A stretch of DNA of 64,000 nt, from the NCBI RefSeq assembly GCF_964204865.1, contig NC_135252.1:7151383-7215382 (forward strand). Reading direction: 5' to 3'. The notes below the pieces were generated by a model that saw nothing but the letters and a program-made list of their open reading frames with translations, made no database searches and was not told where the DNA came from. The position numbers and the translations under genes are program-made. Position 1 is the stretch's first letter. The number at the start of each line of letters is the position of its first letter. Positions 749 through 33,301 of this stretch are shown piece by piece. This stretch comes from Styela clava. Its lineage: Eukaryota > Chordata > Ascidiacea > Stolidobranchia > Styelidae.

Positions 749-841
749 ACATTATCTTTACCTGTCGTTGTAATTGTACATGGAAATCAAGAAGCAAATG
801 CAGCGGCCAGTATTTTATGGGACAATGCATTCGCAGAACAG
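749..841 (+). other. STAT alternative exon A (His version)
   Basis: The 93-nt exon is in phase 0 at both ends, with acceptor AG at 747-748 and donor GT at 842-843. It encodes 31 residues ending in [10 protein letters not shown] and contains VVVIVHGNQ, the DNA-contacting loop as found in STAT5/6. Only 56 nt separate it from exon B, which is very short for an intron. Confidence 0.85.
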
Positions 842-3800
842 GTGACTCCTATTATCATTTATTTTAACAATTTAACATTATGAATTTTTTTCTGCAGCCG
901 TTGGCCATCTCCCTACCAATAGTAGTAATCGTTAACGTCAGTCAAGAATGCAATGCAAAAGGCACGATTCTGTGGGATAACGCTTTTGCAAAGGAGGTAC
1001 CACCAGTCGCTGTGTGCCTAATCAAATCTAATTGCACACGTCTATAATTTTTTTACCTAATTTACCACAAGTTGTGGTTAGAACTTCTAGTGTAATTTCC
1101 TGTCAGATAAACTCAAGTTGGCATCTTAGTTTTTTCTAATCAAATTATCCTGTTTTACATCATAATCAGCCATTAATAAATGAGGCATAAATTATGTTTC
1201 AGTAACTTCGGTCCATGCATAATTGATAATAATTTTTAACTGTGATAAAAACTATTTAGAGTTAATTTTAGGTTGGCTCAAAATTGGGAGGTATTATTTA
1301 AGCATGTGCCATGTATGGTATCATGTAAATGAACCTTTATTTAATTTATAAATAGAATAAAATGACATAATCTAGTAGTGAGGTGTTGCATGCCTGAATT
1401 TAATTTTGTTTGTTGAGATAATTTGTCCTAATCTAATTATAATTACCACATTTAATTTGTTAATTACCTAATCAGTAGGCGTTTTATGACATAATTTTAC
1501 CTGAACGTGAGGAGAATTGAATAATTATTATTTTGCTGCTATATTTACATTCCAGAAATAGTCTGAATGTTATGTAAAATAATAAGAGTGTGAAATAATT
1601 TTGAGTTCGAATCTTAAATCTAGAAATTTCCGAGATTTCTGATAAATAAGTGATATTGCGCAATTTGGTATTGCTTTTGAGATTAAACAAATAATACACT
1701 GGTATTTTATTTTTGCAATGAATTAGACCCGGAAACATAAAGTAGATTTTTTGGGGTGCCAATTCGAAAATGTTTAGTTGGATATTGTGGTGTAGGAACA
1801 CTTCCAATGTGGAAAGTCCATGCACCTTAAAGAAATAACTGAATATTTATTCCATTGTTGGAGAAACCCATCATTTGCTCAACAAAATTCTATGGTATGA
1901 TATTTCTCATCTTAGTATTGTGATGATCCAAGTTCCATACTTTAAAAATGTACGGTGTTTGTAATATGAGCAAATTTGAGATAAGGTACTAAAAATAAAA
2001 TTTTGGACTTCATTGATTGGGGAAACTCTCTTATGCTAATACCAACTGATACTAGTGTTAAAGCTTCTTTCTTACTGTTGATCTAATTCACATTAATAGG
2101 GTCGAATTCCATTTCAAGTACCGGACAAAGTACCCTGGTGTAAACTTATTGAATCTCTCGATCACAAATGGAAACACGAAACTCGCAGTCCACGTGGTCT
2201 CACTATGCAGGCTAAACAATATCTCGCCTACAAAGTTTTCAGTGAGTACTATTCCATCTTTTTTTTAACAATTCTGAAATTTTATTGTAGTTTTTTTCGC
2301 ACCTCTGCTCCAAATAAAGCTACAGTCAAGTAGTCACTGATATAAGTTAAAAGTTAATTCATTTAATGGTTGTAATCTTACCATTTCACCACCCTAATTT
2401 CAGACAGCCCACGTGGGGTTGTGGGCATGCTGGGTTATTGGTGTTTTGTTATCGAAGTTCTACCTAAGCATACCAGTTGCTTAGCAACCATCAAAAATGG
2501 CCGGATTAAAATAATTTTAATTACTGGTAAAAAATAGAGTAGTTTTTTGTTTTGTAAAGAATTTTTTTAAATGTGGAGATAAAATAACAAAACTGCTTAT
2601 TATTGGCTTATTAATTGAACTACAGTACTTATACAGTATGTGGTGAACGATATTTTTTAATTCTACTATGAAATCAGAAACCAAACAAACCGCTGTCTTA
2701 CAAAATAAACTAGTTGCGCCTTATGTAGGGATAAAAACTCGATCTATGCAATTTATTGACAGTGTGCCTTATGATTCGTCAAATACAGGAATTGTCTCAT
2801 GTACTATCAGGACAACACTTTTACTGTAATCCATTCGATTGATGACCATAATTACTTATCACTTCCTTCAGGCCTTATGTACACTAGCTTTCAAATTATT
2901 TGTTTTGTTCTCGAATAACGGATCCTTCACATAGCAGGTCATTGTTTACACTTGTGGCAGTTATGACATGTCATAAATAACATTGTCACAAAATTTCTGT
3001 ATATTGCCATTATTGTGTGATGTTGCGAATTATAAATCATGAAGTTATTGGAAAAAAGAATAAACAAGGTCGAATTGCACCTCCTTGACGCAGTCCACTC
3101 TGTTTTTTCTGTAAATAATAGATTAGATCAATTCGAGAACTTTGAGTCCAAATTCAAGATAATCAATCAAATGGACATACCGGTTTATTTTTAGCAGTAG
3201 TGTCAACCGCAAATGCCATGTCTACAAGTTGAATAAATAGTTGGATTAGAAGTTTTGGATAGAAAATTTGATATATTGGCATTGAGTTATGGAAAACTTA
3301 TGGAAACTACCTATATATTTATAAATATGAATTCTTCGTAGACATAAACAATCATAACGCAGCCAAATTTTGATATCAGCTTTTGTACTATGTCACACTA
3401 CTACTGTAATTTTAATATTTAATACCGTTTCATTTGTGGCTCTCTTGGTGGGTAGATAATAAATACATTTTAGGAGGTGGATTGATTTCCATGACACATA
3501 CTTTGGAAATCACAGATCTAGATGATTATAATTGAAATGGATACAAAATGACTACCCTACTACTCATTTTTTTATCTGTCTCCTGCCACACATATTCTTT
3601 TATTATCAGAACAAACAGTGATGCCAAACTCAGAGAAACTCATTTCATGGGCTCAATTCAACAGAGAACCATTACCAAAACGTAACTTCACTTTCTGGCA
3701 ATGGTATAACGGTGTCATGGAGTTAACTAAAAGTAAACACCTTCAAGTACATTGGAATGATGGGTGAGGATTACATCGCTGGATTTTTTTTACTTTTTTT

Positions 3801-6800
3801 TGCTGCCATTGTTGCATCCTATTGTGACTAGATTTCTCTGTGTGAGTGACAGGAGTGAATGAATAGGACTCCTTGCACCACAGGATGGATCATGTACCAA
3901 CTGCTGGTTATGGAGCCTCTTAGGAGGTAGACTATCATTTATGGAGCCCCACAATAGATTTATAAAAATAAAAAACGCATTGTTACTTACTGATTAATGT
4001 TCATGACTTGGATGTGTTGCTGTTTTGTATTAAAAAAAATATCCAATATTTTAACAAGTAAACGAATACCTTGGGAGGCTCTAGATTTCCATTACAGAGC
4101 CCTGGGGCTCTGTATGGAGCACTTTGAGAACCTATGGCTTAGGCTATTAATCAATTATTCGAATATTGTATTGATGATAAAAAATATATAAAATCTAAAT
4201 AACGAAATAAAATGAATGAGTGCCAACTAGAGATCGTGGTTTGCCTATTATTAAGAAACAATTTTCTTATCTCAACAACAGCTGAAAATTTTTCAAATCA
4301 CAATTTGCCACCAACAAATTTTTTGATTTATATTTTCAGAGCCATCATTGGTTTCATTGGTAAAGCTGAATCTCAAGAAAAACTTCTTTCTATGCCAAAT
4401 CGTACTTTCCTGCTGCGCTATTCTGATTCTGAAATTGGTGGACTCACCATTGCTTGGGTGGCAGATGAGAACGGTAGCTATACAAAAGTTTCATAAAATA
4501 TTTGTTTATGGCTCTCATTCATTCAGAGTAGAGTTATAAACGAAATTATTATGATAAAAATTTCATTTTTATTTTCTTTTAGTGGAAATTAGTGTTGCCA
4601 ATCTATAACCCCGACTGTGTTCAGATTAGGAGTTCTCAAACTGGGGGCCGCAAGCCTCTGAAGATTTCTAGGGGCACTTGGATGGTACAGGATGACACAA
4701 AAAACAGAACCCAAGTTGTTTCGAAAATAACTTTTGTGCAACGCGTCCCAGATTACTGAAACTTTTGGGTACAATTATACACAAACAGAAGTTTAAGTGT
4801 TGAATAAGTTACTCATGGGTTCTGTTTTTTTTGTTCACCCTATGATTGAGTTTATCTCCATTCCTCTATTTTATGTGGAGCATGACTTACCCATGTGCAT
4901 GTCTAATACCTGTTCTCAAATTTTGAAAATTATGATGCGTAAAATTATTAAAGGATCGTCAATATATCAGCACTTAATTAAATTGTTTTACAATTTGAGG
5001 GTCCTTGAAGATATGACAATTGGAAATGCCTGGTTTACCTCATATGTTCCATATTCATAACAAAAAATCTGTATATATCACTAATCGAACCAGTGGTACA
5101 GTGGTAAATACAACCTTTCCATCACTGTTTTTTTTACTTTTGTGGAATTTGAAATTACCGATTCATTGAAAATGATTCATAGTCTAGCACAGGGCTACTC
5201 AACTATTTTTATAGAAGATCCGCATACAAAACTTCAAAAATATTTGGATTCTGTGTTTCCAGAAATTATATTTCGGCATCCTTAGACACGCACTTCCTCG
5301 ACCGACAAATGATTATTACTAATCAAGATTGTTTATTATGGCGTTTAAGTTCTTTTCATATATATTTAAATCTATAAAAGTGGTTTTATGAAAGGAAACT
5401 TCCAAAGTGGGGCTAATGATCCAAAATAAAAAATCAGACGCGGCCCGAATCGAATACCCGAAAGGTCCGGGTCCGCCATTTGAGTCGCCCTGGTCTAGCA
5501 GATTGGCAATCGTAATTTTTTTTTTTAATTTTTAATCCCAGATAAAAACCTTTGTGGGAAATTTGTTTTTCATGTTAAATGAAATTGGCAGAGCCAACTC
5601 AAATAGTTAGTGAGATCTACTGGAATTCAATTCTCTCAAATACCGTATATATATGCCTAGTGTCTTCCATTTTTTAATCATTTCTGCAGGTGTACCAAAA
5701 GTATGGAACCTACAGCCACAAACATTGAGAGACTATGGCATCAGATCGTTGGCTGATCGTATCAATGATCTCGGGCAACTCATGTATTTATGCAAAGCAG
5801 ATGACACAACAAAAATGAAAGATGAAGTTTTTGGACAATATTATTGCAAAACGGGAGGAAGTTCTTGTGAGTTTTATTACTTTGTGAGATGATTTTAAAC
5901 GATCACTCTGAACAAGGCCACCTAACACAAAGAATTTTGAAGAGATGTTTCCTTTTATGATGTAGAATGAAATAAATATTCAAATCGATTTGTGTTTGAT
6001 TATTTTTCGTATTTTAAATTCTTCATTTTTAGAAATGTTTTAGAATAATTTTATTTGAAAAATCATCAAATAATCAAATTAACCAAATAAAGCCTCATAA
6101 AATTACCAAAAAATCCTTCATTTAATTTCAGGCAGTTGTAAAAAATAAACAACCAATCAAACCACTGTTATCTTAACTTTATAGTATTTACAAACAAATC
6201 CAGACACATTGAATGTATTTAGAATTCTATATGTTCTTTGCTGACATAACTCAATTTTGAATTTATATTTTAATATATCATATGGTATTTTAATTATTGT
6301 ATTTTATGGACCATAAGGCATACTAGGTTATGTGGCGCACTAATATACTACGGTTTTTAAGAAGTTTAAGACTCAGATTTGTATACAAAACAGAAGTACT
6401 GGTACTGGTTTGAGTGTAGACGATAAAGCATAAAGCTCTACCTGATCCATACATTAGGCGCACCGGATTATAAGGCGCACGATCTATTTAAAAGTAAAAA
6501 ATAGGATTTGGAATAAACATAATGGTCTGTAAAATACAGTAATCCAACTATTTTATTTGGAATAGTAGGTTATGGGCAACCGGCTTCCTGCCTCGGTTTA
6601 AACAAAGAAATGAACAGGACTCGAACAAATATCTTTACCTGGTACTCACGTAGTATGTGAACCAAGATGGTGAACCAGATTGGGGTTAGGCCATAATTTC
6701 AGGTACAAATACTTCGAGAGTCACTTGGCTAGTCCTGAACTTGTAAGAGAACTAAAATAAGGAAAAATGGAATAAAATTATGGCCTCACCCTAACCTGGT

Positions 6801-9800
6801 ACACATACTATGTTCAGTTATCGCCATCTTGGTTCACATACTACGGGAGCGCCCTTTAATTTATGCAATCTGAATTCCATTTCATTTGAGATATTGTGAT
6901 TTATTTTGTCATTTTTTTTTATATTTTAGCGGAACAACCAGATGGATATGTCAGAACAGAACTTATGCAACATATTCCAAGCCAACCTCCCATGTGAGTT
7001 GTGAAGATATATTGTTATGCTATTTATGCTAATATAACACAAATTATATACAGTAGTTCTTCCAGATAACAAAATAATAAATACCTCTCTTTGTCTACTC
7101 AGATCTCAAATGAGCCTCTTCAGTGACACGAGTGCCCCAAGTACACCACAAAGTAACTACGATGCCCAACTTATGCATAATTCACCTCCGCCTTCAAATG
7201 CTCATCCTATACCGTTTGATGTGTAAGTAGTTTTATTCATTTTATGTTTGACACTTGATGTGAATGTTGCAGTGCGTAAGTATAACATTATTGAAGATGT
7301 GCATCTACAAATAGGGATGTTTTTTGAATTTTATCTGAGTTGGAATAGAATTTTTATATTTAATTTGGGAAATAGGAAAGCTGGTAAGATGGCAAAATCA
7401 TATGGCAATCAAATTGCCACAGCCTCTCTTCTGGTTAACAGCCAATTGTGTCTTACATCCTTTTTATCAGATTTCATTGTTTCTCATTGTGCTGTTTTTC
7501 TGTTGGAAACTCTGCATCTTCAATGTCTAGAAGTAGATTTGAATAATATTAATAAATACTAATCATATTGGTACTTGGTTAGCATGAGATATTATGTCCT
7601 GGCCCTAATCTGGTACACATACTCCTGAGTAAAACATCACTTGTCATAGCAGTCATATTTATTTTTTTTCTTTATTAAACCATTTGTTCCAATATTAACA
7701 ATCATTTGCCCGCACTAACATCAGGTCTTTTTTGCCATTTTCTGTTTTGCATGAAACGCATTTGCATGTTTCGCTGCCTGGCTACTGCTGCATTCTATCT
7801 TCCTATCAAATACAGTGGATCACCGCCTGTGCCAAGCTGCCTATATTATGACGGGTGAGCTTGCATTCTTCACAGCAATTTTCGCTTCGAAACAAACCTT
7901 CCAAATATGTTAGATTTGTATTTGGGTAGCTATTTAACAGTGATGTCCAAAGTAATAAAACATTCGAATTTTAGAATCCTTGTTTCAAGAGTAATTCGGA
8001 ATATTTCAGTATAAAGCAAATTCCTGAAATTCTAAAAACGTTTTTTACCAGTCATTATATATATTAAACTTTTTGTTCAACTTTGAGTTTAATTTGTTTA
8101 TATCAAGAGATTTAATTTTTGAACATTATTCTAGTTTGGTGTCCAGCAAACTGTAAGCCGTGGCCCAATCATGGACCATCAATCATTTTCTAGTGGGCCT
8201 CCAATAAATTTCAATTATGGCAGTGATACACAAAAAAAGTTCTAGAAATTCAACTTATAAATTTTATATAAATTTTAAATAAATTTTTTTGCCAAATAGT
8301 TTTGTTCATAAATTTAACTATTATACATTTATTTCAAGCTAAACAAATTAAATGTCCTTTAACTAGTTTATTATGTGGTTAAATTTAAAATTTACAACCA
8401 AATTGTTGGGCCTTATGAAACCTTTTCTTTTTTTACCAGTTGGGCCTCACTTAGAAAACTTTTGCCGACCACTGTTCTAGTGCTATTTCCCATAGCCAAC
8501 CCCATCTTCGCTCATAATTTCTTTATTCTTTACATTTTAGTTTCGTCATTTTTGTTTGTTCATTCTATGAATAATAATGATGTATGAATGATTACGTATC
8601 ATTCATGATCATGCATGACAATGATAAAACTGTACACAAGATATCGTGTAATGAAATCAAGATCAATTTATTTCAGCTGCAAATAAAACATAGTGACAAT
8701 GTTTTTCTGTTTTGCTATTGATTCACAGAAGTTGATCAAAGCAAATCTAGAATTGTAAGGGTTCCTTTTATTCACTCCGCCCATATCTGAAAAGTTGTTA
8801 GCACAAGTTTTGTTTTTTTGCATTTGATTTATTTTTTTTATTCTCATTTAACATCATAATATAAATCAGCTTTATTTTGCATAAATGATAATTTAGTTGT
8901 TATAATATTCAGTTTATTCAAAAGAACACTATTCTGTTTGAGTGGAGTAGTAGTGTACTCAACTACTGCTCCTGTCTTTCTGCATTTGACAGCAAAAATC
9001 AAAACAGCTATTTTGAGTGGTTCAATATTGACCATAGGCCGGTTGAGAACATTACAGATATAAATTTGTGAAATTCTATGGCAAGACTACTGAAACATGC
9101 AACAATATTCTGTATTCTAATAGGGATTTTTCGAATTTTGCTCCAACTTTATGCTTCAATGAAAGTGCTAGTGTAGTCGAGTACTCTAAGATTCGGATGT
9201 TCAAATGCGCTATACAAAGGTATATGTAGAAATCCCCAAAACGAGCCATGAGGCCAGTCCGAATACGAGTCAATCACTAAGTTAAGTCTCCCTAACAGTT
9301 AGTCCACGGTATTTCTATTTATTAAATGAGTCTTGAGTAATTCTGAATCTTTGAGAAATGGCAACTCGCGTTTCCCTGACACTGGCATTCAGTAGTACTA
9401 TGATGATCTTGTAATTTCTTCATGGCTTCTTCTGTATTAGTTTTTCTTACAATGCCTTGAATAATCCAGAAATATTTTTTTGTTTGTTTTGTATTCAATT
9501 TTGATGTTAGCATTTAACACCTCTTAAAATTATAGTCAAATGCTCTGTCGTTTTGTTGTTTAAAATTATGCACTGTAAACTTTGTACTTTAAATTTTTTA
9601 AAAACATCAGTACCATCATTAACCCATGTCAGAGCCAGTTCAACATTATAGAAGTAACATGATGATACCTTAGTATACCTTCACCAATAGTTTATTATCA
9701 CTGTTTAGAAATAAACAATTTCATTCCATAATAACATTAGCTATTATTTTTCAGGCAATCTGAAGCTGGAAGCAACAGCAACTTTGCACCGAATGAAGTC

Positions 9801-16094: not shown

Positions 16095-16580
16095 CTAAAC
16101 ATTTTTAATGCCCATACAATTACGTAATCTCTCAAAACGATCCCTAGGAAGACTCTTAGTGAATATATCAGCAAGCATATTTTCAGTAGGACAATATTCA
16201 AGTTCAAGAACCCCATTGTCAATTGCCTCCCTAATAAAATGATAACGTATATCAATATGTTTAGTTCTACCATGCGAAACAGGATTCTTTGCAATAGCAA
16301 TTGCCCCCTAGTTGTCTTCCCTAATAATTGTGGGATAATTCTGTACCATTCCAAGTTCAGCAAGCAATTTCCTCAGCCAAATAACTTCTTGTGTGGCAGA
16401 ACTCAATGCAACATATTCTGCCTCTGCAGTTGATAGAGCAACAATGGGTTGTTTCTTGCTGAGCCAACTAATGGCACCACCGGCAAGCATGAAGAGGTTT
16501 CCACTTGTAGAATGTCTATCATCTTGATCACCAGCCCAATCTGCATCTGAATATCCCATTAGATCATTTCCAGATTTCAT
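16095..16580 (-). pseudogene. Copia RNase H remnant
   Basis: After the RT deletion, an RNase H domain is readable ([54 protein letters not shown]), running to a natural stop at 16095-16097. It is out of frame with the upstream gag-pol reading frame. An in-frame TAG at 16308-16310 interrupts it just before GAIAIAKN, where the family normally has Gln, so a single C-to-T change is the simplest cause. Confidence 0.85.
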
Positions 16581-19167
16581 CATAGTCAATGCCATACCTC
16601 TGAGTATATCCCTTAGCGACCAGCCGAGCCTTGAATCTTTCAATTTTGCCATCACTAGTATACTTCGTTTTGAATAGCCAACGACACCCAATAGGTTTTC
16701 TACCGGCTGGTAATTTTACAAGATCCCAAGTTTCATTTTCCATCAAGGATTTGTACTCATTTTCCGCTGCAGTTTTCCATTGTCTTGCACACTCAGAATT
16801 CAACGCATCTTCCAGAGTTTTCGGCTCTGCAATTTGACTAGCATGATACGCAACATAATATGATTTATCGTGCAAGGCAACATCTACATATTCATCATAG
16901 CCAAACCTAATTGGTGGATTCACTTGTCGACTAGATCTCCGAGGCATTTCTTCATTTGATTCGTTGACTCCCACTGCATCAATATCTACTTCTATTTCCC
17001 TTGGTGCAGATTTTTCAGCTTTTGTATCGGAACGTTTTACAGTTGTATCAAATTTTCCTTGACCAAAATCACTTTCATTGAATACAACATCTCTCCGAAT
17101 AAAAACCTTTCCAGTTCCTTCCACCAGTAGTCTGTAACCTTTTGACCGCAAATCGTAGCCAACGAATCTCAATTTTTCAGCTTTTTTATCCAGCTTTTTC
17201 CGCCTACAATCTGGTACATGAGCATAAGCCGCACATCCAAAAACACGAAAATGACTTACATTCGGCTTTCTTCCATACCAAAGTTCGTAAGGCGATCTGT
17301 TTCCCTTGATGGCAGATGTCGGCACCCGATTTCTGATATATGCTGCTGCGTAGACAGCTTCAGCCCATATTCCCTTGTTCATTCCGGCATAGCATATCAT
17401 TGATCTTGCCGACTCCATCAACGTTCTATTCATTCTCTCCGCCACACCATTCTGAGCCGGTGTGTGAGCAACTGACAGTTCATGTTTTATGCCCCCTTTC
17501 CGCAAATATGCTTCAAAATTCTTTGAGACGTATTCACCACCATTATCAGTTCTCAAAGTTCCAATTTTAACACCAGCATTATTTGTCATCAGGGTTTCAA
17601 ATTCTTTGAACTTGTCAAATACCTCATATTTGTGCTCCATGAAATAAACCGCACAAAACCGTGAGTAATCATCAATAAAAGTGACAAAATACCTTCGTCC
17701 GCCAATTGACTCGACTTCCATTGGCCCACAAACGTCACTGTGTATAAGTTGAAGTTTCCGTGTAGACCGAATTTCACCAACCGCCCTAAGCGGCTTTCGT
17801 TGAATTTTTCCCTCTACACAAGCTTCACAAAATGACAGTTTTGCATCATCTGGAATTTTCACATTCAAAACATGGCTTTTCCGTACAGCTTCCTTTAATT
17901 GCTGACCACCAAGATGACCCAATCTTTGATGCCATAAATCCAGAACAGATTTCTTTCCGTCAACCAGCATTCCCTTATGTTCCAGGTTTGGTCGACAATT
18001 TAACTGATACAATTTTCCATTCAATGTTCCCATTCCACGTACAATTCCATTTTCACCGTAGATCCAGCAAGTCGACCGATCAAATTTCAAGATATTTCCT
18101 TTGCTTGCTGCTGAATGTACTGAAAACAGATTACACGCCAGTTTCGGAACATACAGAACGTCATATAAAGTACTTCGCTTCGACTTTTTTCCGTGAAACA
18201 GCATCACAAGGTGAACATTTCCCACACCAAGTGCTTCCACTGTTCTGCCATCTCCAAGTTCCACTTTTTCCGGAACACTGAATTTTCTATAGTTTACCAG
18301 AAATTCATTTTCTTTAGTCATGTGACGCGACGCCCCAGAATCCACCAGCCACTCCGATCCATGGGCACTGTTAGATGAACCGATCATTGCTGAATCATCA
18401 TCTTCACTGGATTCTGGTTCAGGCATGGGAGTCATAGTTTCCGCTTTATGGTATCCAGTGGGCACATACTTTTTCTTCATTTTACGGGGGCAATTTCGCC
18501 GAATATGCCCCTTTCGCCCACATCCATAGCACGTACGTTTCTTGTCGAAACCGACCAAAGCTGACTCGTCTTGATTGCTATTCTTCCCATTTCCAGAGCG
18601 ACCATTCATCTTTTGCTCTTCGTGTAAAAGCGCCTGTTGAACAAATCCTAGGCTAATTCCATCTACACGCGATTCCAGAGCAGTTACCAGAGTTGAATAG
18701 CTCTGTGGAAGACTTCCAAGCAATGTTACAACTTGATCTTCTTCACTGATAGGCGCCCCAATAGCTGCCAGCCTATCTGTAATTTCTTTCATCCGCTTCA
18801 AGTGATCATCCATCCGCATTCCCTTTTCCATCTCCGCACGAAAATACTGCTTCTTTAAAAATAGCTTGTTTGCCAACGTATCCCGTTCAAAATGATTACG
18901 CAATGCATCCCAAGCCGCCTTAGGTTTATCAAAAGAAGTTACCAGGTATAACTGTGACGGATCGATAGACAAAACAATTGTTGACAATGCCTTTTGCGAC
19001 TTTTTGTTGAATTCGAGCACTGCTGCTTCACCAGCGTCTTCAGTAAGCGTAACCGAGCCATCAACATATCTCCACAGCTCCTTTGCAAGCAAAACATGAC
19101 GCACCTGAAATTTCCATGTTGTCCAATTTGACCCATCCAATCTATCAATAGACCATTTGTCCTCCAT
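16564..19167 (-). pseudogene. Copia gag-pol polyprotein, truncated in RT
   Basis: Long open frame of 867 codons. From the N-terminus: copia-type Gag, zinc knuckle CYGCGRKGHIRRNC, aspartic protease WLVDSGASRHMT, GAG-pre-integrase HQRLGHLG, and an integrase core with the expected acidic residues (SDVCGP, RTDNGGEYVS, HTPAQNGVAERMNRTL). The start of reverse transcriptase follows ([18 protein letters not shown]). It then jumps directly into RNase H sequence in another frame and stops within three codons. The catalytic RT motifs are absent, indicating a deletion of the RT core with its junction near 16575. Protease and integrase look intact. Confidence 0.93.
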
Positions 19168-19249
19168 TGAACCCGATTAGAACCAGTCAACGACCGACAA
19201 CAATACCGGAATCAGCAGCAAAAGTCACTGGTTACTTTTCAGTCTTTCA

Positions 19250-20297: not shown

Positions 20298-23200
20298 ATG
20301 GCAAAGTATAGTAAATCAACACAAACAAGTCACATTGAACAATGTGAGAGCATCGGTCAAGAATGGCTTCTGATGAAAGGAGCACAAGAGCTGAGAGCAA
20401 ACGATATACTGGTTGATGTAGTACTTATCGTGGATGGAGTAAAATTGCAGCCGTGTCACAAGTAATCCCTATTTGCCGCTTTATTTATTTTTTTGTGATT
20501 ATATATATAGGCTACAACTTATATATTACAGACGGCCCATATTTGTCCGATCTTGACTTTAGTTTGAAAACGAAGCGAATTTTGCATCACGTCATGTATA
20601 TATATACGTAGACGTTTCTGCGATTATATACACGTATTAAACTTTGATTATACTGTTAAGAAGTTTTTTAAATTTTTGTTTTAAATTTTCATCCGCCACC
20701 AGGTTCGTTCTTGCCGCAAGTTCGCCCTATTTCAGGGCTATGTTTTCCCATGGAATGGCTGAACAAAATAAAAAGGAAATTGAAATCATGGATGTTGATA
20801 GACGTTCACTTCAACTAGTTCTGGATTACATTTATACTTCGCAAGTATCGATCAGCGATAAAAACGTCCAAGGATTAATGACAACATGTAGCCTTCTTCA
20901 GGTAATTTGAAAAATGATTATAAAAATAAGTAATTAAAAGCATAAACATATAACTGAGACTGCAAGATCACTCAGGTTTATTATACAGCAATATAAAAGC
21001 CGTTTCAAGTATTATGTCGTCATATAGAACTCAAAATACAATCATTGGATGGTAAAATCGACGTATTTTCCAGTATCCTTGGTTTGTTGTATACAAACGC
21101 CTTCAAAATCATAATAATAAAGATTTTTAGAAAAATATTGTTTCTATAATAATCTATTTGCAAATAGATGTTTTCTGATTGAAATAAGGTAAATTTGCTA
21201 AATGATGCGACCATAGAATTGTATGGAGAATTTATTGGTCATTCACGGATGTAATAAGGTTACAGTTCGGTGGTGTGACCCATTTGCATTCGAACTGAGT
21301 TTACTCTGTAGATCTGCTCAAAAATCGTAAAACATGGTGCGATATTTTTCAGATAACGGGATTGTATGGCAAATGCAGAGAATATATGATAAGAAGACTT
21401 GATATCACGAATTGTGTGTCAGTTTATCAATTCGCCCGATCTATGTATTCAACAAAATTAGAAGATGAAGCATTTCGGTTTATTGCGAGAAGATTCAAAG
21501 ACGTTTCCAATATGGAGGAGTTTCTAAGTCTTAGCAAAGATGAATTTATTGATGTCATTTCATCCGACGATGTTTGGGTAAGCTGAATTTCATGCAATCT
21601 TTCATTTGAATTAAAGACTATACATAACTAACGACACGCCTTGGAAATTGCAATTCACAGATCTTTTCCATTGTTTAAATATCCTAATCTTGTCGGATCG
21701 TCCATTTCTATATTTTCTATCATGTTGTTTTTTGGCGCTCCCGTAGTGTGTGAACAAAGATGGCGAACGCCGGAACGTAGTATGTGTACCAGGTTAGGGT
21801 TAGGACACAATTTTATTCTAATTTTCCCTATTTTATTTCTATTACGAGTTCGGGGACTAGCCAAATGACTCACGTAGGATTTATACCTGAAATTATGGCC
21901 TAACCCTAAACTGGTATACATACTAGGTTCCGGTGTCCGCCATTTTGATTTACATGATACATGAGTAGCTGTTTTTCAATTCCGTGTTAATAGATTACAA
22001 AAGAGGAGTATGTTTACGAAGCTGCAATCCGATGGTTAGCGGGAAATATCTCAAGGTGTTGTCATGTTGCAGAAATTTTTTCACACGTTAGATTTGCACT
22101 GCTTGATGAAGATTATTTAGACAGCTGCGTGTTGCAAGTAAGTATGTCATCTAAAGCCAGCGCTAACTATCCGGTTCTCTCATGAAATATATTCCTAATA
22201 TGAATAGTACATTAACATATCAAAATTTGATGGTAGAAAGTGTAGAGAATTTATTTCAATATTAAAATCATGCCCCGAACTGTTTTTGAAGATTATGAAA
22301 AAATCACCATAGTATAATGTGCACGGCATTGGAAAAAACAGTCGTTTATACTTCGATAATTTACATATATAGGATGTCCATAAAGTCCTTTTACAATTTC
22401 AATTTTGTTATGAAGTCAGTTCTTCACATATATTAATCTATATTGTTGTTTTTAAAATCAGTAATTGTTTAAATATTTTTAATTCATTTATTACAACTGT
22501 GAGGGCCAAAACAATTATGGTATCGATGAATTCCCTTTGCAATTTAAAAAAATTTAAGACCTCATGGATACCCTATCAATATGCAGTTTGCTGAATAAAC
22601 TCAGTACATACCAGATATTACATTATGATGAGTAAATAAAAGCAACGAATCTACCATATATATATTGCATTTAATTTTGCTTCATCTGGTCATATTTTAG
22701 GAAGAAATCATCTTGGAATATCCACATCTCCGTTCTCAAGTCGAAGCCGCAAAAACCTACATTACAAAAGCAAAAAACCTTCAAAATAAGAAGAACACAG
22801 AAGAGTTTTATGATCAAACATCATCGGATGTGTCGGAGAACTCGGATGTAGAAAGCCGTTTTCCTTCGTATACTATTTCGATTGAGGGACTAGAAAACAC
22901 AGTCAGGATACCTTTAAATTTAAGACCCAGGGCTGGAATGAACACAAAAGAATATTTGTTATTTACAAATGGCAGGAAAACGTTTGTTATGAATCCAGAC
23001 TGTTCGGCGGAATATTACGGATGTATGGACAATAACCATACTGATATCAACAGCAATCGAGAAGAACGTTCAGCGATTGGTTGGTCACCAAATCTTCCAC
23101 TCATGAAAAACCCTGAGGCTTATGTGGCAACGGATGGAACAACCTTTTTGTTAGGTGGTACGTGGATTTTTCCGTGTAATGAGGTACACTGGTATGTATC

Positions 23201-25371
23201 AAATTGAGGTGGATAAAATATGTTTAAAATTATATTTTAGGTCTCGAAGTAGAAAAGACGATGCCGCCAGACGTACGAACGAGGGTTCACACGCTTGAAC
23301 AAGATGCTCTCAGCTGGACAGCGTGTACGTCGATGCCAATTCCGCGATGTATGGCAGCATACGGTGACGGGTGTGGGCACTTTTACGTATTAGGTAAGCC
23401 TATAAGGGTTGCATTCAGTAGTGGGATTCAGTCGGTTCGCACCGGTTCTATAGAATCGTCTCACGGAATTTTATGAGATCAGCGAACCGGTTAGCATTAC
23501 TAAAAGAAAACATGTAACAGAACCGGCCGAAAAATATGACTTTTGTGATGGAACCGGCTGACAAAAAATTTGAATCCCACCACTGGTCGCATTGTAATAT
23601 ATATATATCGGTATTATTGACTTCAATGAAAGTCAGGTTATTATACTCGCTGACATTTGTGCAAACGGTTGGAATGTCTTCTCGTGATATATTGTTGGCG
23701 CTCATTTGCTTCTTATTATGTGACTGTTTTTTACCCGTTCGACCGCATCCAAAGTAGAATATAAATGTGATCAGTGTAAGAATATCTTAAGGCTTGCAAA
23801 ATATTTACAATTGACGAATATAACTTTCATCGGCTCATCTTTCTGATCATTCCACTAAATTAGCCATGGAATCACATCCATACAAAGAAGGTATTATTTT
23901 CTCTTGCCAGTAAAATTTCTACGATAAATTTTTTTTTCTCAAAAACTTCCGTATTGCAAAATTCCCTTCTGTTTTTAGCTATTTCCTGGAAACGTTGACC
24001 TGAATTATATCAAGTCCCATGTCAACAGCTATCTACTGACATCTGTCATCTTGTTAACAATATTGAAAATATCGATAACCCGTTTGGGAATTAGGTTTTC
24101 ATATGTCACGCAGTGAGATGTTGTATTCCCACAATTAAAATGGCATATGTTTTAAACTTAGAGAATGGCTATTTCATTGTTTTAGGAAATTACACATACG
24201 CAATATAAAACCATGCACCATAGTGAATATTAATTATTTTTTTTCGTTGTAAATTAACATTTCCAGGAGGCAAAGCTCTCGCCCAGGGCGAAGTCGTATC
24301 AACAGTCCACAAATACAGTAGAATTGAAAATGAATGGGAAGAAGTTAACCCAATGCCAATTGCAGTTTATGGCCACGGTTCAGCTTCAATACACGATAAA
24401 ATATACACCATTGGTGGGAAAACTACCGCTAAGGTAACACTCAATTCTTCTGTGTATAAGGAGTCTTTAAAGTATGAAACTCGATTTTTTTTAACTGCTC
24501 TCAAAATTCAGGTTTTACTTTCCAATGTCCATTATCTTGATTGCATCACTCACCAATGGACAGAGATTGAATCGATAACGGTTCCAAGGTTTTTACATGG
24601 AGTTACAGTGAATCGAGAAACAGAGGAATTTATTGTCGTAGGTGGTTCGAGTGAGGAAGGTGTACTAAACAGTGTCGAGGTATTATTTATATTTTTAGCA
24701 TATTTGTTAAATTCTTAAAGACAATATAGATCGCTAATGTGAATGCCAATATAAAGCAAAAACTAATCGATCAATCAACGGCCGACACGACCCAGGCCTA
24801 GGTGTCGCTATACATACCTTATAAGTGCTTCAGTACATATATATACGTTGAATTTGATCGTTTACTTTTTTAGGTATTCAATTTGTTGGAGCGAAGATGG
24901 AAATTCGGCGAAAGTTTCCCCGGAAATCGATGTGCTCAATTCGTAACATATTTCAAGGAAGAGCTGCACGCAGTTGGGGGCTACGTTACAGAAAGGTAAT
25001 TTGTGATTTCATCTATAATATAGGGTCTTTAATTGCGGTATATATAAACCTGAATTAAAAACCTCTCTCACTATATTAGGCTCTAGGTACTTATAACGAA
25101 TGGAAAATACAACCATGACGCGACGAATCTAAAAATTTGACAAATATCTTTATGCCACGTTGCACGATTAATTTACTTATTTTTCCACAAGTTCAGAACT
25201 GATGGTGGTAGATACGAATCAAGAGAAATGCATGATATTTTTGCTTTGGAAGATGAATCAAATCAATGGATAAGAAAAACCAGGAGAGTCAGGGGAACTG
25301 TTGGAGGATCTCTCGCATGTGTCAAAGTGTCATTGAATGTAACGAAGTTACCTCGCGCTAGAACTGCGTAA
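20298..25371 (+). CDS. KLHL: Kelch-like BTB-BACK-kelch protein
   Basis: Probable substrate adaptor of cullin-3 ubiquitin ligases (inferred from domain architecture). Exons: 20298-20461, 20703-20901, 21353-21577, 21994-22137, 22701-23157, 23241-23393, 24267-24433, 24512-24679, 24874-24995 and 25197-25371. All have GT-AG borders and sum to 1974 nt (657 residues plus stop). The BTB domain spans roughly residues 20-120 (DVVLIVDG; FVLAASSPYFRAMFSHGMAE), and the BACK domain roughly 125-250 (ITGLYGKCREYMIRRLD; VYEAAIRWL). After a Ser/Glu-rich linker, kelch repeats fill the C-terminal half (MPIPRCMAAYGDGCGHFYVLGG, first 20 matched; IYTIGGK; FIVVGG; LHAVGGY). The start was chosen as the first ATG of the frame. 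The exact KLHL subfamily cannot be assigned by eye. Confidence 0.9.
21733..21960. mobile_element. Fold-back MITE, GCGCTCCCGTAGTATGTG family
   Basis: Starts GGCGCTCCCGTAGTGTGTGA and ends near CGCCATTTTGATTTACAT. The interior repeats GTACCAGGTTAGGGTTAGG and its complement. It lies in kelch-gene intron 3. Confidence 0.6.
22371..22573. mobile_element. MITE with AGGNTGTCCATAAAGTC ends
   Basis: The left end AGGATGTCCATAAAGTCC and right end GACCTCATGGATACCCT form imperfect inverted repeats about 200 bp apart, in kelch-gene intron 4. The target duplication is unclear. Confidence 0.5.
23416..23585. mobile_element. hAT-type MITE
   Basis: Inverted ends CAGTAGTGGGATTCA and TGAATCCCACCACTG, with inner AACCGGTTC motifs. 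The 8-bp duplications GTTGCATT (23408-23415) and GTCGCATT (23586-23593) differ at one base. It starts 23 nt after a kelch-gene exon end. Confidence 0.8.
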
Positions 25372-26150
25372 TGAAATATTTAAAAATATAATCAATAAAT
25401 ACCAAAAATGGATGGAAACGTGGCCTATTAGATTTTAAAGAGCTGGGTATTTTGAAAAAGGTTTCGGAAAAGTCAAAAATGTTATCTTTAGTCTTAATTT
25501 TTGCATAAAAGAATGAAATATTCACTTGGGTCAAGAATGGATACATTCGCTGCACGATACCTATAAGATACACAATACAAGTAAGCGGTGCTCAAATGTA
25601 TGGACACGAAAGCCAAAACAAAGTAGTATGCAATTTGTCACAGTGGACTACCGGTACAGCAATCTGCACGACTTCGGCTGGTCATGGTCACTAGTTCGCA
25701 AAATTAAAGAAAAGAACATCCGTCACGATGTCATAAAAAGCACAAATAGAAATAAAACAGCGGGATTTTAGATGAATATCAGATCTCATAGAAAATTTAG
25801 AAATAAATAAAAGTAATAGCCTTCTAGCGACATATTTTCAAGCAATTTGTCCAGTAATAAAGGGAGAAAGGCGATTTTTTTCACAAGGGGAAGATGAAAA
25901 TACAAACAACAACATGTAGAATAACACGACATAAAAACAAAACGATCCATCCGCTTCGTGTCCAATAAGATTTAAGCAATTACTGTAGTTTTATTTGTTT
26001 GACTTTATAGTATTAGGTGCTGAGTCACAAGTCGAGTTTGATCGTGTCGAGAATCGCTACAGTTTGATTAATTTGCACCGAAGTTAATAATTGACCAAAC
26101 GAACGCAAATCCACTCCGACTTATTTCTGCTTGAAATAACGACAGCGAAC
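25372..26150. other. Kelch 3' UTR and DECR2-type promoter region
   Basis: AATAAA at 25395-25400 and again near 25805 are candidate poly(A) signals for the kelch gene. The frame upstream of 26151 is open to about 26091 but has no ATG, so the coding region starts at 26151. No promoter motif was recognised. Confidence 0.45.
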
Positions 26151-27026
26151 ATGTCTGCGATACCAAGAAACACAGAGGTTGAACTTGACGAATGTTTGTC
26201 TCACTATAAGTATGTTTTTAACCCAAACCTATTACAAGGTCAGGTTGCATTCATCACTGGAGGGGGGTCAGGAATTGGTTTCAGAATTGCTGAAATTTTT
26301 ATGAGACACGGGTGTGATACAGCAATCGCGAGTCGGCGACTAGAAAAGGTGAAAGAATCGGCGAAGAAATTGGAAAAGGCCACTGGGAAAAGATGTCTTG
26401 CCCTTGCAGTAGACGTGAGGAAACCAAAAGAAATTGAAGAGACAGTGGATGAGGTTTTAAAACATTATAAAAAGATCGACATTCTGGTCAACAACGCTGC
26501 TGGTAACTTCATTTGCGACGCTGAAAATCTTTCGTACAATGCTTTTAAAACGGTTATTGAGATTGATACAATTGGTACATTCAACACAAGCAAAGCTGTT
26601 TTTGCAAAATGGTTCAAACAGAATGGAGGAAATATCGTCAACATCACTGCAACGTTAGCCTACAAAGGAGACGCGTTACAGGTGCATGCCGGGTCTGCGA
26701 AAGCTGCAATCGATGCGATGACGAAACATTTGGCCGTCGAATGGGGTGGAAACGGCGTAAGAATCAATGGTATAGCACCTGGACCCGTTGAAGGTACAGA
26801 GGGATTAAGAAAGCTAGCAGGAGGAATGGCCGATCAAGTCAAAACCGGTATACCCCTACAAAGATTGGCCCAAAAATGTGAAATCGCGGATATGGCCGTG
26901 TTTCTCTCCAGTAATGCAGCAGCTTACATGACTGGGACCGTTTTGGTGGCGGATGGTGGTAACTGGCTGACGTCATTCAATAATTTTAATATGCTTAAAC
27001 AGGTCTTGCCTAAACCTAAAATATAA
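26151..27026 (+). CDS. DECR2: 2,4-dienoyl-CoA reductase, DECR2-type, intronless copy 1
   Basis: Short-chain dehydrogenase that uses NADPH to reduce 2,4-dienoyl-CoA during oxidation of polyunsaturated fatty acids. Single exon of 291 residues, the usual length for DECR2. The Rossmann motif ITGGGSGIG lies near residue 40 and NNAAGNF near 120. The active-site region [20 protein letters not shown] and the motif [17 protein letters not shown] are characteristic of the peroxisomal (DECR2) rather than the mitochondrial enzyme. The start is the first ATG (26151). The C-terminus reads KPKI, which is not a peroxisomal SKL-type signal, so location is uncertain. Vertebrate DECR2 genes have several introns; the lack of any here suggests retroposition or complete intron loss. 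Confidence 0.93.
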
Positions 27027-28981: not shown

Positions 28982-29852
28982 TTATCTTCTTAAATTCATT
29001 CTGCTGTCGAAGTTGTTACCAGATGCCAACCAACATCCGCCATCCACCACGAAGATCGCACCTGTCGTGTATGCTGAAGCATTGCTAGCTAAAAATACCG
29101 CGGTGTCCGCTATTTCGTATTTTTCTCCCATTCGTTTTAGCGGGATTGTTTCACTTATGGCATCTTCTAATCCGCCGCCGAGTCTCTTGAGACCTTCTGT
29201 TCCTGCAATAGGACCAGGAGCAATGCAGTTAATTCTTACCCCATTGACTCCCCATTCCACAGCCATATGCCTGGTCATGGCGTCAATTGCAGCTTTAGCG
29301 GAACCAGCGTGGAGCTGCAGAGCAGTTCCTTTGTACTGTATCGTGGCTGATATGTTTATTATATTACCGCCATGTTTATTGAACCATTTTGAAAAAACTG
29401 CTTTGCTGACATTGAAGGTTCCGAAAGAGTCGATCTCCATCACCGTTTTAAAAGCATTGTATGAAAGATCTTCAGCAGGACAGAGAAAATTTCCAGCAGC
29501 ATTATTGACAAGAACGTTAATCTTTCCATAATGTTGCAAAATATGATCCACAGCTTTTTCAATTTCCTCTGGTTTTCTGACATCAACAGATAGAGCGATA
29601 GAGCGAGCAACGTCTACCAGTGGCATTTTCTAATTTTTTCGCCGATTCTTCCACTTTTTCTAGACGCCGACTGGCGATTGCAATATCGCATCCATGCCGC
29701 ATAAAAATCTCAGCAATCCGGAAACCAATTCCAGATCCTCCCCCAGTTATGAAGGCTACTTGGCCTTGAAGCAAGTCTGGTGTGAAAACGTAAGTATAAT
29801 TTGTCAAACAATCATCAGTAAAAACCTCCACATTTCTAGGTTTTGTAGCCAT
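28982..29852 (-). pseudogene. 2,4-dienoyl-CoA reductase, DECR2-type, intronless copy 2, frameshifted
   Basis: Clear paralogue of the 26151-27026 gene, convergent with it. The first part (from ATG at 29852: [11 protein letters not shown], then ITGGGSGIG) runs to about ENATGRRC. The frame then breaks, and the rest ([13 protein letters not shown] to [20 protein letters not shown] and the stop at 28982) is in another frame. Compared with copy 1, seven extra bases sit between the RRC codon and the ALSVDV codons. An 8-bp direct repeat, GATAGAGC twice at 29589-29604 on the plus strand, marks the spot. Apart from this one lesion the frame is open and well conserved, so it is either a young pseudogene, an allele, or an assembly error. 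The C-terminus (NLRR) lacks a PTS1 signal. Confidence 0.88.
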
Positions 29853-30813
29853 TATTGTACCATAAAATGAATAACTACCAATATTTATAATGATAACTTG
29901 AATAATAAGGATGTTAGCCACGATAGATAACTTAGAAGTAAACAACCTATTTATTCCAGATCATGATAATGATCAAGAAAAATTCAAGATCGCTGCTCTT
30001 TTTACAGAGGTAGCTTTCCAACAGATTGCTTCATATTATACCAGTTTTTACGCAAAACATGATGACCAAGCATGACATCTATTTAAAACTAACTTGCTAC
30101 TGCATAGTTATGATTAGCGATTTGGTCAGATTATTAGCAGTTTGAATAAGTGCAGGTATTAAATATTAAGACTAAGTTTAAATATCCGCTCTGCTACAAT
30201 CCAACCTATACCAGTAAGCAAACAAGGTAACATGTATGTACTTAGCAAACATTGATCAACAAAGAACTACACAAAAATCATGCTGATTAAACTGTTTGTC
30301 AATATTGCAAAATTGCTTACCAAATACTTTTGGAGTTGAGGGTTCACAGCAATGTCATATTTTTAAGGGTTAAAGGTTAAAAAAGCGCATTCTCTATAAT
30401 TGAAGGTCAAAAGAAGAAATTGAAGGAACTGACTTTGGGATAGTGGGCAACCCAATACATAAAAATGATATCAGCCCAACATTAAAGATAAAGTATAACA
30501 TTTACAGATGGTCAATAAAAATGTTTTTTTGTTTGTTGTTGAGGAAAGATCACAAGTTTGCCAGCAACCAGGTTTCAAACATGACATTCCATACATTAAT
30601 TGGTAATGCAGGGCACAAGATTGACACAAATAATATGAACTTGAGATAAATAAATCACAGCTAAATGACATATTTATTGAAATGTAAAGAAACACAAGTT
30701 GATATATGATCAAACAAGAATGAAACAAGTACAGCTGATCATGATGAGGTAAAAAAAAGTGGCTGTAGATATATAGCATATCAAAAACAAATTGAAAAAT
30801 GCTACAATATTCA
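29853..30813. other. Spacer; SGSH 3' UTR on minus strand
   Basis: TTTATT at 30672-30677 (AATAAA on the minus strand) is a candidate SGSH poly(A) signal. The rest should hold the promoter of the DECR2-type copy 2 gene. No other gene seen. Confidence 0.45.
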
Positions 30814-32340
30814 TCAATGCAAATTGTTTTGGAGTCCCATGCACACAGGATGAGCTTTATAACTTCCAGCATCTTCTAAAACTCCACCTGGTGCACAAAT
30901 GAAAGGATCATGTGTTTGATTTTGCCATTGCATTTGCATCATCCAAAGAGACTGAAAAATGTCTTTATATTTTTCATCAGTTGCTAGATTTTTTATCTCC
31001 AGCGAGTCATTATCTAAATTATACATCTCCCATTCAGGGCGATAATAATACTGATTCAAAGTTTTGAACCAATGAAGATCCTTTCCATCTCTAGTACGAT
31101 TCAGCAGGTCTTGGAAAGATGGAGACAAATAAAAGTCTTGATCAATTGGAAATGGCATAAGATAGTTCAAATTTCTAATTAACCTCCAACTTTTATTTCT
31201 AATTGATCTCATAGGATAATACATTGTGATTTCATGCAATGAGTGGCTGCCAAATACATATCTTCCATGAATATTTGGATCACTAAATATGAGAGACTGT
31301 CCAGTTAAACTAGCACGACGACCGAATATTTTATAACTTGGATATGAAATGTCAAACCATTTTAACACTGTAGGTGTAATATCTAGTGTGGAAATCACTC
31401 CATCACTATGCGTTCCCCAAGATGACTTTTTAAGTGGGTTTGAAACAATAAAGGGTTCTTTAGTGCCTGATTCATAGAGATTTGTTCTTCCATTTGGAAA
31501 TGGGATGCCGTTATCAGAAGTGAATATTACCAAAGTATCATCTGCATGACCTGCATTCTCAAGTTCTTTTAAAATGAGTCCAACTCCTTGATCAAGTCTT
31601 GATATTGTTGTGTATTGTGCACTCAGGTCAGATCTTGCAGCTGGAGTATCTTGAACAAATCCAGGCACAATTACTTTATCGGGCGAATAATAATCAGGTT
31701 TCCAATCTTCTATTATTCCCATTCCTGGTTGACCATTTCCAAATTTTTCACAAAAAACTCCATATTGTGGTTGCGTATGCCCACATCTATGTGGATCATG
31801 GAATCCAATATATAAAAAGAAAGAACCATTACTCTGAGACAAAAACTCTCTGGTTAGCTCTTTCATTCTGGTAATATTTCTCCCGACTTGCATAATTGAA
31901 TTATTTTCTTCTGTCTGAGCATATTCGAATGGATAAACTTCCTCTGGGCCAACATGCTTTTTACCAATGATACCAGTTCGAATACCAGAGTCTTTTAGTA
32001 TGAGAGGAAGACTTTTGACTGCATTGAATGAATCAAAATTATGGTAGCCATTGTGCAATCCATACATGCCATTTTGATGTGGGGGAAGGCCTGTAAGAAT
32101 TGCTGATCTACTGGGCGAGCAACTGCTTACGACAGTGTATGCATTTTTGTACAAAATTCCGCGAGATGCCAATCCATCTATGTTTGGAGTCGATATGACA
32201 CTGTTATTATACGCTCCACATTCGAATCCGTAATCGTCTGCAACTATTACCAGGACATTGCGAGGAATAACAGCCATGCACAAACACAATGACGACAAAC
32301 AAATGAATAAAAAATGAAAATAACGCACCAGATTGAACAT
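30814..32340 (-). CDS. SGSH: N-sulfoglucosamine sulfohydrolase (heparan N-sulfatase)
   Basis: Lysosomal enzyme removing N-linked sulfate from glucosamine at heparan sulfate chain ends. The call rests on close resemblance along the whole length: [110 protein letters not shown]. Cys74 in CSPSR is the residue converted to formylglycine; the Asp-Asp metal site and DNG motif are present. I chose the Met at 32340 because a hydrophobic signal peptide follows at once and 508 residues fits the family. The frame stays open to an earlier ATG at 32442. It is a single exon, whereas vertebrate SGSH has several introns. Confidence 0.95.
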
Positions 32341-33301
32341 CCCTAGACACCCAACCATTGCACTTTTGCAAATTGCAGAGGCTAAGTAATAGGGGGTTTC
32401 CCGTACGACACGATCACATGACGCTGCATGATGTGTGACCAAATGGTAAGACCAGAGCTCTGGCTCTGGTAAGACTACCTGACCGGTTGGTTCATTTGAA
32501 AATTATTAATACAAAAAAAATTGCTGACAACTAAGGCATTCAATTATCGTACAGTTGTCTTGAAGTTAACCGTAAATATATAGTAGTTAACGCTATAGTG
32601 GAGGGATGCGAACAACTCGACCACACGGACAACTCACCAGAGACAACTCGACTACAGTAGTGGATTGTATCTTAAAATCCCGAATCTGGGGTGGAAATTT
32701 TCGACTTTAAATAAAAATAAATCCTAGTAGAATCGGCAAGGAGGGCGTCTCGTGATTATTACTGATAATATTATGATAACATTAGTATATTATGACAGGT
32801 CGAAAAAGTACATTATTGATTTGTGAAATCGTAGTTTATTCAAATTGATATCTAGGATTCTGGATTGACTTTTAAAAGTGGTTTACAGATTCGGGCCGTG
32901 TTTAGAACATGGCACAACTTGCTACCACGAATGGGGAATCCCCTCTAAAGTAGGGTGGATACAAAGTGACAAATTCCAAAACGGGATATTTTATCAAGCA
33001 ACGACCAAGCGTTGTCTCATTTATTTGTTGTTCGTGTGTTCACATTTGATTAGCATTGTTCCATTGCGGTATAGCCTAATCCGAAAGCAAGCAACTCGAT
33101 TAACGGTACCGTACTATTGCCACACGTTGCAACTGTCAATAATATAATATGCGCTACCGGTACGCATTCCATAACTTGTAAGATCGAAGACTAAATAAAT
33201 AAATTATTGTTATTATTTGATGCTACGGTACATACTAGCCTATAGGTAGAAATTCGAGTTCCAAGGAGGTAATATTGAATTTATGTTTGGTATTTACGGT
33301 A
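32341..33301. other. Divergent spacer between SGSH and PRSS16-like gene
   Basis: Likely promoter region for both genes. TCACATGAC at 32414-32422 resembles an E-box or lysosomal (CLEAR-type) element but falls short of consensus. No gene recognised. The right part of the original spacer is interrupted by a hAT element. Confidence 0.4.

Follow-up and report, generated by a model that had tools for sequence, protein, structure and literature searches.

A putative pair of mutually exclusive exons exchanging the DNA-contact loop in a STAT5/6-type gene of the tunicate Styela clava

As a class, tandem exon substitution is already known (PMC9741552), and the text of that study has no whole-word match for transcription factor, STAT or DNA binding. 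Exclusive exons are on record in the transcription factor FOXP1, whose mutually exclusive exons 18 and 18b change forkhead residues along with the preferred motif, according to the available portion of the report (PMC11701043). The criterion for steric exclusion in human, a distance of less than 50 bp between donor and branch point, applies to 57 of 629 clusters in the accessible text of PMC5740500, and a 56-nt intron of HNRNPH1 splices in human cells with SPF45, as given in the part of PMC8363638 at hand. As for the STATs, the excerpted account in PMC5359187 states that His415 of STAT6 contacts DNA directly, that the other STATs, apart from STAT5, have Asn at this position, that the H415N change in STAT6 lowers recognition of N4 and raises that of N3 sites, with N460H in STAT1 acting in the opposite direction, and that STAT5, which has a His too (H471), is without N4 recognition. 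Hence, the residue alone does not set the N3/N4 spacing, because STAT5 carries the His and fails to recognise N4. In the tunicate Ciona, statb groups with STAT5/6 and stata with STAT1-4, and the available portion of that paper mentions no exon pair in either gene (PMC3296744).

We analysed a window of 64,000 nucleotides from the ascidian Styela clava (contig NC_135252.1, positions 7,151,383 to 7,215,382), which opens within a STAT gene and contains two adjacent homologous exons of it, here called A and B (Table 1). We propose, with a probability of about 0.75, that they are a mutually exclusive pair that swaps the DNA-contact loop in a tunicate STAT5/6-type gene. Like exons 18 and 18b of FOXP1, A and B would be exclusive exons altering residues within a DNA-binding domain; unlike them, they lie outside the forkhead class, and the isoforms and the shift in motif that were measured for FOXP1 are deduced here. 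As in the human clusters with steric interference between donor and branch point, the intervening intron is short and the predicted donor-to-branch-point distance is less than 50 bp, with the difference that here the branch point comes from its motif only. No STAT exon pair of this kind appeared among the papers listed in literature searches on alternative exons of STATs and other transcription factors or on tunicate STATs, in a collection where subscription journals are thinly covered. Pending RNA data, the novelty would thus lie in the STAT pair, exclusive exons altering DNA specificity being already known from FOXP1.

The host gene begins upstream of the window with ten further exons, running from an N-terminal ATG (MSLWAKVRELEGEALQQIQSLYG...) to the exon ending in NELVFQVR, which is followed by the donor gtgagt and stops 353 bases before the first base of the window. 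The spliced models are stop-free, with 771 residues via A and 773 via B (the C-terminal end being unclosed), and run through the motif DGYVRTEL, covering what we take to be the N-domain, the coiled coil, the SH2 arginine and the C-terminal tyrosine; the role of the tyrosine in DGYVRTEL is likewise our assumption. Against solved structures, the path through A matches STAT5B at E 1.7e-64 (query residues 1-172 of 175) and STAT6 at 1.3e-50, as against 6e-27 to 7e-24 for STAT1, 2 and 3. The DNA-binding piece built with exon B matches STAT5B at 3.9e-45, STAT6 at 3.9e-29, and STAT1 and STAT3 at 1e-5 or weaker. Judged by these comparisons, the host gene is of the STAT5/6 class, with STAT5B nearest. 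It thus shares a common scaffold with the vertebrate STAT5 and STAT6, and differs from them in that their solved chains have one version of the segment, no alternative exon being seen for them among the matches listed.

Table 1. Features of the window, in window coordinates.
Feature	Position	Strand	Description
Exon A, STAT DNA-binding-domain exon	749..841	+	31 codons, phase 0-0, loop VIVHGNQ (His type)
A-B gap	842..897	+	56 nt, GT...AG, TTAAC motifs at +26/+34, pyrimidine run before cag
Exon B, homologous copy of A	898..996	+	33 codons, phase 0-0, loop VIVNVSQ (Asn type)
Next exon	2100..2241	+	joins in frame to A or B
STAT linker exon	3610..3763	+	from comparison with solved STAT chains
STAT SH2 exon	4340..4473	+	from comparison with solved STAT chains
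Exon following the SH2 exon	5690..5866	+	from the spliced model
Tail exon	6930..6993	+	tyrosine motif DGYVRTEL; from the spliced model
C-terminal tail exon	7103..7222	+	from the spliced model
Likely further tail exon	7816..7854	+	gene model ends here, C terminus left unclosed
Copia-type LTR retrotransposon	16308-19176	-	870-residue frame with gag, integrase and start of reverse transcriptase; additional open frame extends to 16308
BACK-domain gene piece	21299-21586	+	
Short-chain dehydrogenase gene (adh_short), first of two inverted	26091-27026	+	one open frame
Short-chain dehydrogenase gene (adh_short), second of two inverted	28982-29960	-	two overlapping frames
Sulfatase gene	30814-32502	-	one open frame, 562 residues, Pfam Sulfatase and SGSH_C
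Serine carboxypeptidase S28 gene piece	38731-39294	+	
Phosphatidylinositol phospholipase C pieces	52968-53267, 56049-56321	-	X domain in parts spread across about 3 kb

Beyond the modelled STAT exons, the window holds the further genes and gene pieces of Table 1; the inverted dehydrogenase pair presumably resembles peroxisomal 2,4-dienoyl-CoA reductase, and the frames at 22701-23207 (+) and 46252-46806 (-) have no Pfam family match.

A and B are both bordered by AG and GT, and they share their flanking exons, the one ending in FQVR upstream and the one at 2100 downstream. In a search of the 376.6-Mb genome, exon A as query recovers B at E 3.2e-6, and exon B recovers A at 9.8e-7 with a match that extends six bases to the left of A across one TAG; the homology of the two is beyond chance. 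Queries with A and B match A, B and a single exon of another STAT gene (E up to 10), with no third copy. Adjacency, homology, equal phase, similar length (B begins with two additional residues) and common flanking exons, as expected of an exon pair, were thus all found. The initial annotation had described the two as homologous, adjacent, correctly bordered phase-0 exons that each join in frame to position 2100, and here its coordinates proved exact and the genome-search E-values concur.

The divergence of the two exons speaks to the age of B. Over 31 aligned codons, with the first two of B dropped, 19 of 31 residues are identical and 35 of 93 nucleotides differ; the differences fall on 20 of 21.2 silent sites and on 15 of 71.8 replacement sites (Fisher test on rounded counts, p 5e-10). 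As silent sites are saturated while protein change is restrained, the duplication is old, and both copies have been retained under selection for their protein. In a neutral simulation, scored for open copies keeping at least 19 of 31 residues, the pass rate was 19% after 30 hits (mean of 19 nucleotide differences), 0.5% after 50, 0.045% after 60 and 0.005% after 70 hits (mean of 36 differences), with 0 of 20,000 passing after 80. A and B are more diverged than at the 30-hit level, their 35 differences corresponding to a depth of 60-70 hits.

Alignment with solved STATs places the two exons at the same DNA-contact loop, which reads VVIVHGNQ in A, as in STAT6, VVIVHGSQ in STAT5 and VVISNVSQ in STAT1. 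Thus the HGNQ of A is identical to the STAT6 loop and one residue away from the HGSQ of STAT5, and the NVSQ of B is identical to the loop of STAT1, the remainder of B (ILWDNAFA) being STAT5/6-like instead. Within the pair, only A has the His at the contact residue; in B, the adjacent Gly is moreover replaced by Val and several charges are altered. Hence, B most plausibly arose by copying of A and then converged on the STAT1 loop. Acquisition of B from a STAT1-type gene was rejected, its body being STAT5/6-like. The alignment concurs with the earlier proposal of alternative His and Asn versions of one DNA-contact loop. The chemistry given alongside it for STAT6 His415 versus Asn is right, but it omitted STAT5, which also has the His (PMC5359187, in the portion available). 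For this reason the proposed switch between a STAT6-like and a STAT1/3-like mode of DNA binding was overstated: the alternative loops stand, but the scaffold is nearest to that of STAT5, in which the His goes without N4 recognition. Since the scaffold is STAT5-like, any altered DNA reading may concern either N3/N4 spacing or affinity.

A second, divergent STAT gene has its loop exon at G000:C6:4504103-4504192, reading VVISHGKQ (His type). It is nearest to STAT5 in both tested pieces, in the SH2 piece narrowly so (7.6e-11, as against 2.8e-9 for STAT1), and in this the two genes differ from the tunicate STAT pair described in Ciona, with its STAT5/6-like statb and STAT1-4-like stata. A search of the genome with STAT1 for a STAT1-type gene elsewhere found nothing; however, the SH2-exon query of the host gene missed the SH2 exon of the second gene, and a search with the STAT_bind family recovered only two exons of the host gene, so that the empty STAT1 query shows little. 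In the available portion of a comparison of six tunicates, the table row for STAT_binding reads 2 in the first six of nine columns (PMC8122590). If two STAT genes are all there are, exon B would be the only Asn-type loop of the animal. No relatives were confirmed in bacterial/archaeal and viral collections, as expected.

The gap between A and B was set against introns of the same genome. As reference, we aligned six myosin genes in spliced fashion to an intronless one, which called 82 introns, and kept the 64 whose position and phase recur in three or more of the genes, dropping 18; with 14 introns from elsewhere in the STAT gene, each of at least 109 nt, 78 reference introns were available. 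The kept myosin introns have a minimum of 69 and a median of 84 nt, and none of the 78 is as short as the 56-nt gap between A and B. Introns of 73, 78, 81, 90 and 114 nt from genes with I-set or kinase domains, beyond the 78, agree. The dropped calls include all eight that are shorter than 60 nt (26, 33 four times, 42, 56 and 57 nt). The one translated 33-nt call is open in frame; the 42-nt call has a stop and conflicts with the aligned exon ends; the 56-nt call is without a stop and has the donor GTGTCT; and the 57-nt call has stops and the donor GTCTTT. We judge all eight to be artefacts, though one or another may be a genuine intron of very small size. Reading from exon A into the gap meets a stop. 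The TTAAC motifs resembling a branch point lie 26 and 34 nt from the donor of A, whereas a comparable motif, present in 50 of 57 short introns, lies 37-74 nt from the donor, 34 being just outside this range. The earlier suggestion that the 56-nt spacer may be too short to splice out and would thereby enforce exclusion is therefore favoured by a length below 78 of 78 reference introns, and weakened by the human intron of 56 nt that does splice (PMC8363638, available portion).

The donors of both exons are weak. Scored by a matrix built from the 78 reference sites, which biases the comparison against A and B, only 2 of 78 reference donors are as low as that of A and none is as low as that of B (GAG/gtacca); among the acceptors, that of A ranks 14 and that of B, of about median strength, 37 of 78. 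Since constitutive neighbours are also weak (the upstream donor ranks 7 and the acceptor of the exon at 2100 ranks 4 of 78), weakness is not special to A and B. Weak sites fit regulated exons, and the donor of B would equally fit a little-used one. As the lengths of 93 and 99 leave both the joining of A to B and the skipping of both in frame, the reading frame does not enforce exclusivity. Structured RNA governing exon choice was considered and rejected, as there is nothing unusual around A and B (z -0.14) and inverted repeats number only three, of 14-17 nt. A codon-usage scan for short introns scored real and decoy splice pairs alike.

Several observations on the wider genome came from the same searches. 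Myosin heavy chain genes at G000:C16:12.61-12.71 Mb and C13:8.457 Mb have introns at matching positions that are mostly about 70-90 nt long, and 57 of the 64 kept myosin introns (5 of the 64 being from a gene on C18) measure 60-100 nt, a sharp minimum-intron signature. At C5:2.6-4.4 Mb and C10:4.06-4.38 Mb lie many grouped protein-kinase frames whose matched part is intronless among the matches listed; perhaps they are an expanded family or retrocopies. The GH6 family has one match in the genome, with an E of 1.5e-6 that lies over the family cut-off, and its translation resembles, in our reading, the GH6 domain found in cellulose synthase of ascidians. Tunicates being, to our knowledge, the animals that have a GH6 domain, this match points to a tunicate; a mitochondrial COX1 query had no match.

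Several other accounts of the pair have to be weighed. That B is an old copy, now little used or decaying, with A supplying essentially all of the protein, is in keeping with its two-residue insertion and with a donor below all of the reference donors, but the donor of A is likewise among the weakest, and B has retained an open frame, a median acceptor and restrained protein change at a saturated silent distance; we regard this account as unlikely. The same saturation speaks for old copies and thereby against an assembly artefact or a recent haplotype duplication, for which no supporting point was found; as direct repeats of at least 14 nt are also absent from positions 600-2200, this origin is exceedingly improbable. 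Joining of A and B in some or all transcripts, which would yield a repeated segment of the DNA-binding domain, gains from the preserved frame and from the 56-nt intron that splices in human (PMC8363638, in the part available). It is nevertheless very unlikely, as the gap falls below every reference intron, the solved chains of STAT5, STAT6 and STAT1 carry one copy of the segment, and a repeated core strand and loop should disturb the fold.

A different kind of alternative accepts the exclusive pair and disputes what it does: B might alter affinity, dimer geometry or partners, for instance as an attenuated isoform, rather than the choice between N3 and N4 sites. This may hold alongside our preferred explanation as a variant of its functional part, and its chance is appreciable, if somewhat short of even. 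The His of STAT5, which goes without N4 recognition, indicates that spacing is not set by the residue alone (PMC5359187, available portion), and B brings with its Asn the Gly-to-Val change, the altered charges and the two added residues. Conversely, the exact coincidence of NVSQ with the STAT1 loop does not look like an arbitrary loss.

Under the preferred reading, that of a mutually exclusive pair, the donor of the upstream exon ending in FQVR would pick the acceptor of either A or B. Joint use would be sterically blocked, because the donor of A and the predicted branch point of B lie only about 26-34 nt apart, within a gap below the smallest reference intron, and the selected exon would then be spliced to the exon at 2100. 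The two resulting STATs would differ in a stretch of 31 or 33 residues including the DNA-contact loop. The isoform with A would present the STAT5/6-type HGNQ and that with B the NVSQ of STAT1 on the same STAT5-like scaffold, and the weak donors of A and B would leave both open to regulation. We infer the existence of both isoforms, their exclusivity and the steric mechanism; less certain is a difference between the isoforms in the choice of DNA sites or in affinity. More tentatively, mutually exclusive splicing might let a single invertebrate STAT gene yield two DNA readers, one of STAT5/6 type (His) and one of STAT1 type (Asn), with the choice of site made by splicing.

In vertebrates, several genes, whose DNA-contact loops are fixed, share the choice of targets in the JAK-STAT pathway. 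The gene described here seems to carry both types of loop in alternative exons, such that splicing could redirect the pathway. HGN and NVS on one scaffold moreover offer a natural comparison that makes the determinant of N3/N4 spacing testable. If the pair is confirmed, STAT would join those transcription factors, such as FOXP1, in which DNA-contact residues are swapped by exclusive exons. If the gene does yield both kinds of DNA reader, in an animal whose other detected STAT gene has a His as well, the Asn-type recognition for which vertebrates use separate STAT genes would come from exon B alone, the choice of site would be under the control of splicing, and the STAT1 loop would have evolved independently in this gene.
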